Shown here piece after piece: positions 1-1,340 of a stretch of 38,843 bases of DNA. The notes under the pieces were generated by a model that was not told where the DNA came from, did no database searches, and saw only the letters and a program-made list of their open reading frames with translations. The first letter of the stretch is position 1; every line of letters starts with the position of its first letter. The stretch spans positions 18,441-57,283 of the forward strand of contig PKTM01000017.1 in the NCBI GenBank assembly GCA_002869145.1. Direction: 5' to 3'. This DNA is from Denitrovibrio sp. GTDB taxonomy: Bacteria; Chrysiogenota; Deferribacteres; Deferribacterales; Geovibrionaceae. The position numbers and the translations under genes are program-made.

Positions 1-117
1 TGAGGCGCATCCTGCGCCTTTACTGGGATATGATTACAGACCTTTGAACCTGCCGTCTGAGTAAATCAGTTTGCCATCAGCGTATACCTTACCGTCGTGC
101 ATTCCTTTGATCATATC
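1..117. repeat. Partial copy of the M29 aminopeptidase 3' end (direct repeat, copy 1)
   Basis: This stretch matches 210-326 at 115 of 117 positions (offset 209). Read on the minus strand, 117 down to 34 encodes the last 27 residues and the stop codon of the aminopeptidase gene at 243-1340, with no gene body in front of it. The two mismatches (positions 39 and 94) are both synonymous, Leu CTG/TTG and Asp GAC/GAT. The repeat includes the downstream hairpin AGGCGCA-TCC-TGCGCCT (3-19). It starts at the window edge, so it may extend further left. Confidence 0.9.
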
Positions 118-127
118 TGATGAACAG

Positions 128-157
128 AGATAATTTATCTGTCCTGATAAATTATCT
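128..157. repeat. Perfect 12-bp inverted repeat (hairpin)
   Basis: AGATAATTTATC (128-139) and GATAAATTATCT (146-157) are exact reverse complements around the hexamer TGTCCT. The hairpin lies in the 92-bp spacer (118-209) between the two copies of the aminopeptidase tail. It has no following T-run, so it is not an obvious intrinsic terminator. Whether it belongs to a small mobile or REP-like element cannot be told from one copy. Confidence 0.7.
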
Positions 158-209
158 AACGACAGCACCGGAATTCATCCCGGTCTGTCTTACACTGCGC
201 TGCGCTGCG

Positions 210-326
210 TGAGGCGCATCCTGCGCCTTTACTGGGATATGATTACAAACCTTTGAACCTGCCGTCTGAGTAAATCAGTTTGCCATCAGCGTATACCTTA
301 CCATCGTGCATTCCTTTGATCATATC
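210..326. repeat. Direct repeat, copy 2 (within the intact aminopeptidase gene and its 3' flank)
   Basis: Partner of 1-117. It covers the last 28 codons of the intact gene (243-326) and 33 bp downstream, including the hairpin AGGCGCA-TCC-TGCGCCT at 212-228. Homology stops abruptly at 326/117, inside the coding sequence. Confidence 0.9.
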
Positions 327-1340
327 CCAGTGGATACCGGATTTGTTTTTGCCGCCGGTTTCGGGATAGCTGGCACCAACCGCCATGTGAATAGTGCGGC
401 CTATCTTCTCGTCAAAGAGAATATTTTTAGTAGGTTTGTCTATATTTTCATTCAGACCAAAGGCTATCTCGCCAATAAGTCTTGAGCCCTCATCAGTATC
501 AAGAACGGACTGTAAAAAATCGTTCCCTTTTTCAGCGGACGCTTCCTTTATCTCGCCATTCTCTATTTTAAGAGTGATGCCGCCAGCCTCAACACCCATA
601 TATGATGTAGGCAGATCAAAATATATCTGACCATTAACGCCGTCTTCCACAGGGCTTGTGAAAACCTCTCCATCCGGCATGTTATGATGACCGTTGCAGT
701 TCACCCATTTCCTGTCTGTAACATTAAAAGTTATGTCAGTATTCTTGCCAACAATATGTATCTCTTTTGTTCCGGTAAGTATATCCACCACCTGCTTCTG
801 ATACATGTCCACTTCGTTCCATGCTGCCACTGGGTCAGCAGCGTTCAGCTTGCAAGCGTTGTAAACAAACTCCGAATACTCATCCAGCGACATCTCGGCG
901 TCCTGTGCCATAGCCTGTGTTGGGTAGGGGCAAAGTGACCAGCGAAACTCACCCTTCTGCTCTCTGTCCATAAGAATATCGCGCACTTTGCGCATAGACT
1001 TGGCATATGTTGATATCTTCTTTTTATCGCAATTAGTGAGCTGTTTTGTGTTGTCAGTACTGTCTATAAAGACCTGCGCAGTTATATTTTCTGCATCAGC
1101 CATAACAGAAGGCGCTATAAACTCCAGCTGTTTTTCACTGGCATATTTATAAAAAACTGACTGCTGTTCAGATATCATCACACGCAGTATAGGGTGTGCG
1201 CCCATCTCTAGTGAATGCCTCACAAACTCTTTAACCAGAGGCTCTGCAACTGTCTCTGCACGCACTAAAAAAATATCACCCTCTTTCAGACCTAGGGAAT
1301 ATTCGCATATCAGCTTTGCCATCTTCTTTTCTAAACTCAT
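243..1340 (-). CDS. M29-family metallo-aminopeptidase
   Basis: This 365-aa cytosolic protein resembles the M29 (thermophilic aminopeptidase, AmpS/PepS-like) family, which removes N-terminal residues from peptides using two metal ions. The C-terminal third holds candidate metal and active-site residues in family order: Glu in GVEAGGI, Glu in IGEIAFG, His in TIHMAVG, Tyr in ASYPETGG, and His and Asp in GIHWD. The length is at the short end of the family but both ends look complete. The ATG is supported by GAGGAG six bases upstream. It follows eno on the same strand but a terminator-like hairpin lies between them. The 3' end is duplicated at 1-117, which does not disturb this copy. Confidence 0.88.
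   Translation of the reverse strand: MSLEKKMAKLICEYSLGLKEGDIFLVRAETVAEPLVKEFVRHSLEMGAHPILRVMISEQQSVFYKYASEKQLEFIAPSVMADAENITAQVFIDSTDNTKQLTNCDKKKISTYAKSMRKVRDILMDREQKGEFRWSLCPYPTQAMAQDAEMSLDEYSEFVYNACKLNAADPVAAWNEVDMYQKQVVDILTGTKEIHIVGKNTDITFNVTDRKWVNCNGHHNMPDGEVFTSPVEDGVNGQIYFDLPTSYMGVEAGGITLKIENGEIKEASAEKGNDFLQSVLDTDEGSRLIGEIAFGLNENIDKPTKNILFDEKIGRTIHMAVGASYPETGGKNKSGIHWDMIKGMHDGKVYADGKLIYSDGRFKGL

Follow-up and report, generated by a model that had tools for sequence, protein, structure and literature searches.

The window, the whole stretch of DNA analysed here, covers 38,843 bp of a Denitrovibrio sp. genome (G000:C7:18441-57283) and opens on an aminopeptidase gene end that is present twice (Table 1). 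Window positions 1-117 and 210-326 form a direct repeat with a spacing of 209 bp and an identity of 98% (repeat search), a match that far exceeds chance within 326 bp. The two copies differ only at two positions (39 G / 248 A and 94 G / 303 A), and on the minus strand the 27 codons of each translate to DMIKGMHDGKVYADGKLIYSDGRFKGL followed by the stop codon; the 33-bp flank of the gene-side copy is window 210-242. The initial annotation was correct in reporting a 117-bp segment repeated 209 bp away and in describing both mismatches as silent. Between the two gene ends lies a structured element, hereafter E; the duplicated gene end is denoted T, the target junction J, and the inverted copy of that junction J'.

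Table 1. Features at the left edge of the window. Positions are those of the window; the slash in the sequence of J marks the junction.
Feature	Position	Strand	Basis
M29 aminopeptidase gene, intact, 365 aa	243..1340	-	ORF; PF02073 Peptidase_M29, 295.6 bits
Duplicated segment T, the last 27 codons of the gene plus stop	243-326	-	repeat comparison
Target junction J, ACTGG/GATATGAT on the coding strand	319..331	-	inverted-repeat arm; junction analysis
J', 13-nt inverted junction copy, distance 0 to E	231..243	-	inverted-repeat arm
Element E, 113 bp, four hairpins, in the orientation of the gene	118..230	-	R1 and R2 models; fold
Hairpin A of E, CAGGATG at the tip	212..228	-	fold and covariation
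Hairpin D of E, 12-bp arms, loop AGGACA	128..157	-	inverted repeat, fold
Orphan copy of T (27 codons plus stop)	34..117	-	repeat comparison; match C7:18477-18560
Second J' copy, after the orphan stop codon	22..33	-	sequence
Further E, first 21 nt, ended by the assembly gap (N, C7:18440)	1..21	-	sequence

Immediately before the window, the contig has a single N (L005:8441, equal to contig position C7:18440). Beyond this N, window 210-306 recurs unchanged as one more partial copy (L005:8344-8440), and the identity spans 99 bp in all, matching window 208-306. Based on the N and this further copy, the window starts within an array that the assembly did not resolve. A plain tandem array on this side had been named in the initial annotation as an observation that would speak against its reading; it was found in part, as a partial copy beyond the N within a longer array. 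On the same contig, a 46-base run of N beside a tRNA gene (L005:2513-2558; Rfam match to the tRNA at L005:2376-2459) marks another assembly gap.

The element family and its predicted fold

E is too short to encode an ordinary protein. A BLAST search located its core also on contig C12, by the 3' end of a glyceraldehyde-3-phosphate dehydrogenase gene (Gp_dh_C, Gp_dh_N), and a pattern search added a copy on C18, where the end of an unrelated gene lies on both sides of E. The copies on C7, C12 and C18 are 113-114 nt long, with four hairpins each. In the window, a first covariance model, R1, matched at C7:18558-18670 (E-value 1.4e-23) and a second, R2, at 118-230 (75.5 bits, E-value 7.3e-14); these scores are not independent, because the window copy was in the seed of both models. 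The final 10 nt of E (window 118-127) follow hairpin D.

Across 92 distinct alignment rows, standard pairs occupied 91.1% of pair cells, as compared to 62.0% after shuffling, and 714 cells had changed on both sides, as compared to 196 (none of 500 shuffles was as high); these figures benefit from an alignment that had been fitted to the model. Shifting the pairing partners by 1-3 columns left 34-45% standard pairs. In an unfitted alignment of four sequences, changes on both sides were observed in 10 of 32 pairs. A strand test gave a weak signal (101 GT against 51 AC when all stems are combined, but 4 against 7 in hairpin A alone). The stems of hairpins A and D vary widely between loci yet stay complementary; conservation lies in the loops and in parts of the inner domain. 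The fold matched no known Rfam family by covariance model: over E, a search of L005, L006 and L010 returned just SPRY4-IT1_2 (18.2 bits, gathering threshold 40, E-value 3.9), which we regard as a chance match, and a search of L060, L105, L118, L142 and L214 (E-value ≤ 1) returned rRNA in L214 and nothing else.

R1 gave 20 matches in the genome of the window (E-value ≤ 1) and matches in 10 of 13 genomes (E-value ≤ 0.1). R2, built on 101 matches and applied at an E-value ≤ 1e-4, identified 24 carriers of E among 50 genomes of the phylum; the number of matches per carrier ranged from 1 to at least 78. Carriers were all 12 genomes of the window's own family and all 10 of genus g13 in family f6, along with one genome of genus g7 in family f4 and one, with a single match, of genus g9 in f6. 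Among the 50 genomes, E was absent from families f2, f3, f5 and f7-f10 and from the other genera of f4 and f6. In genus g3, each of the three genomes had at least 71 to at least 78 matches, at or close to the limit of 78 candidates scored per genome; G006, a genome assembled as a single contig, contains at least 78 copies. Small, structured and apparently mobile, the elements of this family occur in about half of the phylum genomes examined. One E copy searched against phages and plasmids gave no match; five matches to one core pattern on viral contigs did not conform to the model. In G008, 12 contigs of known length carry 39 listed copies, of which five were located no more than 250 bp from a contig end, the expected fraction being 0.0026; five more listed matches, on C10, C12, C23 and C24, were left out of this count. 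This abundance near contig ends shows that arrays of E break assemblies.

For the analysis of flanks, 247 matches (112 + 135) were collected, of which 24 (7 and 17) were dropped because they fell at the same place in two loci, lay near a locus end, or were partial or of odd length; one copy on C12 was added. The resulting 224 copies occupy 129 loci, 72 with a single copy and 57 in tandem with two or more; these loci are mainly the best-scoring matches and not a random sample, and two of the 129 were short of flank, leaving 127. A same-strand stop codon was present near the 5' end of E at 54 of 116 loci, and an opposite-strand stop near its 3' end at 42 of 116, so that no overall bias in the orientation of E was established (the count used open frames of at least 90 codons, some of them spurious).

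Several loci depart from the arrangement in the window. On C12 (L006:3353-3600), E is repeated head to tail with a period of 113 bp (2.2 copies) and no gene-end copy between units. Four loci of G014 (L209, L211, L213 and L219) carry relatives of E preceded by a common sequence, TTTAGAATTGGA, and ending in AAAAATGGA; in L209, L211 and L219, TTTAGAATTGGA lies within a long hairpin that starts with TTCCAATTCTAAATTAA. Judged by these shared sequences, the G014 relatives are apparently a distinct subfamily with fixed ends. In G023 (L214, L216 and L226), E is located at a terminator-like hairpin, with rRNA genes just upstream in L214.

Target duplications, inverted junction copies and empty sites

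A direct duplication of 15-128 bp of flanking DNA, with the downstream copy starting no more than 8 nt from the 3' end of E, was present at 31 of 127 loci, 22 of them with a single copy, as compared to 17 of 2522 mispaired flanks. When the starting position was left free, 25 of 71 single-copy loci showed a strong repeat between their flanks, as compared to 20 of 2098 mispaired flanks, and in 22 of the 25 the repeat started no more than 7 nt from E at its 3' end. A target site duplication, as expected of a mobile element, is thus found both ways. A same-strand gene end adjoins E at 20 of the 31 loci. In L122 (G006), E duplicates not a gene end but a gene start, with the upstream region and first codons. 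About three quarters of all loci, and about two thirds of those with a single copy, show no duplication. Some of the 31 are related. A single insertion is carried by L214, L216 and L226, and two species appear to share the one seen in L115 and L262; L218 and L224 are adjacent units, and the 128-bp match at L220 forms part of a larger repeated unit. Counting related loci once, about 28 independent events lie behind the 31. Copies of E are shown to lie dispersed at unrelated loci, often between duplicated stretches of local DNA.

In the window, the duplication starts at position 326, the junction falling between 327 and 326. J' extends 5 and 8 nt to either side of this junction and overlaps the last base of the stop codon. 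Inverted junction matches of at least 7 nt were found at 10 of the 31 loci (3.4% of 930 cross controls) and matches of at least 9 nt at six (0.43% of 930). All six of the latter cross the junction and are no more than 2 nt away from E; the longest, 13 nt, is that of the window, followed by L066 and L142 (12 nt), L062 (10 nt), and L214 and L216 (9 nt), the last two belonging to one insertion. At L133, L140 and L240, three of the 10 loci with 7 nt or more, the match does not extend across the junction. J' fell below 7 nt at the other 21 loci, and the genus g3 loci had no junction-spanning copy above 5 nt; J' is therefore either lost with age or not obligatory.

At all three loci examined, sister species have an orthologous site free of E. 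At C10:360111, the flanks of E overlap by 53 bp on G001 and G002, leaving no space for E, and 53 bp is the length of T at that locus. At C18:76574, both species have one T and no E. At the window locus, the aminopeptidase end of G002 is followed by a similar kinase-like gene, with no E between them. Movement inside a species was not observed. These empty sites in relatives make insertion with duplication the likely direction of change there, and together with the doubled flanks they indicate that E inserts with a long, variable target duplication. The same sequence at unrelated loci with empty orthologous sites is what a mobile genetic element would produce. Most likely, then, E is a mobile element of many copies, and the repeated gene end is its footprint.

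Proposed insertion mechanism and rival explanations

We consider it likely that E is a small mobile element that duplicates local DNA as it inserts, leaves the gene whole, and afterwards gives rise to arrays. J' and the long, variable duplication suggest a staggered opening followed by fold-back copying on the 5' side. The proposed order of events is as follows: the target would be opened in a staggered manner, the two breaks lying at J on one strand and tens of bases further downstream on the opposite one. E would be joined at J by its 3' end. Next, the single-stranded gene end T would fold back and copy a few bases across J, creating J', and T with its J' would then be joined to the 5' end of E. 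Gap filling would leave T on both sides of E. Landing in the last codons would be self-healing, which would explain the survival of E copies right after stop codons. Finally, once T-E-T was present, arrays could form by unequal exchange or by re-insertion at the same J; the window would then show the part of an array closest to the gene, collapsed where the assembly has its gap. The initial annotation had proposed a recombination or insertion junction at this place, and the insertion half survives in spirit, the orphan copy being one side of the element's target duplication; the other allele or paralogue that it preferred as the source is not supported. No island integrase or IS at the window site is required by the insertion mechanism.

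An alternative without any movement is that E is an old, fixed 3' UTR structure and that gene end and E were duplicated together by slippage or unequal exchange, as a variable-number tandem repeat. Locus-specific tandem periods are indeed common, 57 of the 129 loci holding two or more copies, and the C12 array amounts to 2.2 copies of 113 bp. We nevertheless think this unlikely: in the 25 of 71 single-copy loci described above, one E lies between copies of local DNA with no second E, in 22 of the 25 the downstream copy lies within 7 nt of the same boundary of E, and the absence of E from orthologous sites in the sister species largely contradicts a fixed structure. It is very unlikely that the extra gene ends were instead created by the assembler at a gap, as might be suspected from the single N at the left edge of the window, from the 99 identical base pairs beyond it, and from the position of G008 copies near contig ends where arrays disrupt assemblies. 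No gap interrupts the stretch that holds the two window copies, which differ from each other at two bases, and the same design recurs in the single-contig genome G006 and, at many loci, away from contig ends.

Any reading specific to the aminopeptidase has to contend with the same pattern at unrelated genes. Recombination with a second allele or paralogue, the source that the initial annotation had favoured on account of the two silent differences, is extremely improbable. Apart from the one full M29 gene, a search of the window's own genome yielded two further matches, both orphan end fragments, so that the second gene it had suggested looking for was not found and the donor would have to lie outside the assembly. 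M29 matches were present in 30 of 30 relatives searched (partial at 36% in G022, broken in G010). The silent differences are themselves weak evidence, because 29 of the 84 possible transitions in the T stretch are silent and two silent changes would arise by chance with P ~0.12. Many attachment sites of integrative islands are doubled gene 3' ends, and in this the window resembles the remnant of an island whose integrase used gene 3' ends. Such a remnant is highly improbable, however, since the same element of about 100-140 bp recurs at unrelated genes with a T that differs per locus, and since L122 duplicates a gene start.

Relation to known repeats and possible role

The insertion reading calls for an enzyme, and two candidate families were searched in 13 genomes. 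Reverse transcriptase (PF00078, RVT_1) matched in three and not in the other 10, with none in G006, G001, G002 or G008; Y1 transposase (PF01797, Y1_Tnp) matched in seven, including one match each in the window's own genome, G001 and G002, and none in G003-G008, which include the three genomes richest in E matches. Both families were rejected as the mover, G006 having at least 78 copies of E and a match to neither. The mover of E may have been lost or may belong to other families, among them reverse transcriptases outside PF00078. On C10, a Y1-type (RAYT-like) transposase gene encoding 217 aa (L202:1676-2329) and an E copy are separated by about 1.7 kb; the model detects no further E in this locus. 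An autonomous version of E was sought through recurrent neighbouring open reading frames, and the 25 largest shared groups were, by eye, derived from E, spurious, or orthologues.

An open-licence literature search yielded no description of the E family, and the excerpted text of the Denitrovibrio acetiphilus genome paper mentions no such repeats (PMC3035293). The ERIC/RU-1, RU-2 and RU-3 repeats are 103-168 bp long, stem-loop rich, dispersed, and also fused to gene 3' ends; their transfer mechanism has not been elucidated, and they have TA ends and TA target duplications (PMC2759123). As these and similar MITEs are described there, E is like them in being small, rich in stem-loops, dispersed, and located at gene 3' ends, and unlike them in duplicating 15-128 bp (31 loci) where a short, fixed TA duplication would be expected, and in its inverted junction copy at part of the loci. 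REP/BIME sequences are described as dispersed palindromic repeats, often in composite clusters (PMC2817692). E is likewise dispersed, palindromic and often clustered, but it is a 113-nt unit of four hairpins, and the RAYT-type Y1 transposase expected in the same genome had no PF01797 match in G003-G008.

The target duplication of E also sets it apart from IS200/IS605-derived elements, which are not known to create one on insertion. MIRU are small repeats beside stop codons, in tandem and variable in copy number; E is like them, by description and not by sequence, in its stop-codon position and tandem copies. We know of no long target duplication for MIRU, and a literature search found no paper on MIRU insertion. 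Target-primed retroelements have a fixed 3' end, a long and variable target duplication and a disturbed 5' junction. E shares all three features with them but differs in the enzyme: the reverse transcriptase that a group II intron or related element would need in the same genome was matched by PF00078 in 3 of the 13, leaving 10, G006 among them, without a match.

The loops of E point to a possible role. CsrB RNA carries the motif CAGGA(U/A/C)G repeatedly in hairpin loops, and GGA in the loop is the core of CsrA sites, according to PMC7652899. Among 99 alignment rows (two of 101 were dropped as partial, and rows of one array are not independent), GGA was present in the loop of hairpin A in 84 and of hairpin D in 86, the exact CAGGA(U/A/C)G in hairpin D in 68. 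By locus, the CsrB motif occurred on the E strand at 109 of 129 and on the opposite strand at 1 of 129. E therefore has both GGA in its hairpin loops and the CsrB motif, as a CsrB-like RNA would. Unlike CsrB RNAs, which gather many motif hairpins in one gene, E has two per copy and is dispersed and mobile. About one loop in seven lacks GGA; old copies may have lost a putative affinity for CsrA, or the insertion machinery may instead make use of the loop. Of the 31 genomes searched, csrA was present in all 16 with E and in 9 of 15 without, and since the latter also have the gene this agreement is weak and does not discriminate. If transcribed as the 3' end of the gene's mRNA, E would present two GGA-loop hairpins that could bind CsrA.

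Small dispersed repeats are common in bacteria, and we class E as a new variant of them. That E represents a new class of mobile RNA-like elements, of which it would be the first to be recognised, is a tentative and rather doubtful proposal: in such a class, a structured transcript with paired CsrB-type loops would enter gene ends by staggered, probably nucleic-acid-guided insertion, leave the gene intact and an inverted copy of the junction behind, and have seeded hundreds of putative CsrA-binding 3' UTRs across the phylum. What distinguishes E is its long, variable duplication, which would repair the gene it enters, and its inverted junction copy; together these suggest an insertion chemistry that we could not assign to any known family. 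Related genomes bear gene-specific footprints at dozens of loci, which makes it possible to trace the mechanism by comparison and to search for the missing enzyme. If the GGA loops do bind CsrA, E would be a route by which a regulatory RNA spreads over a genome.
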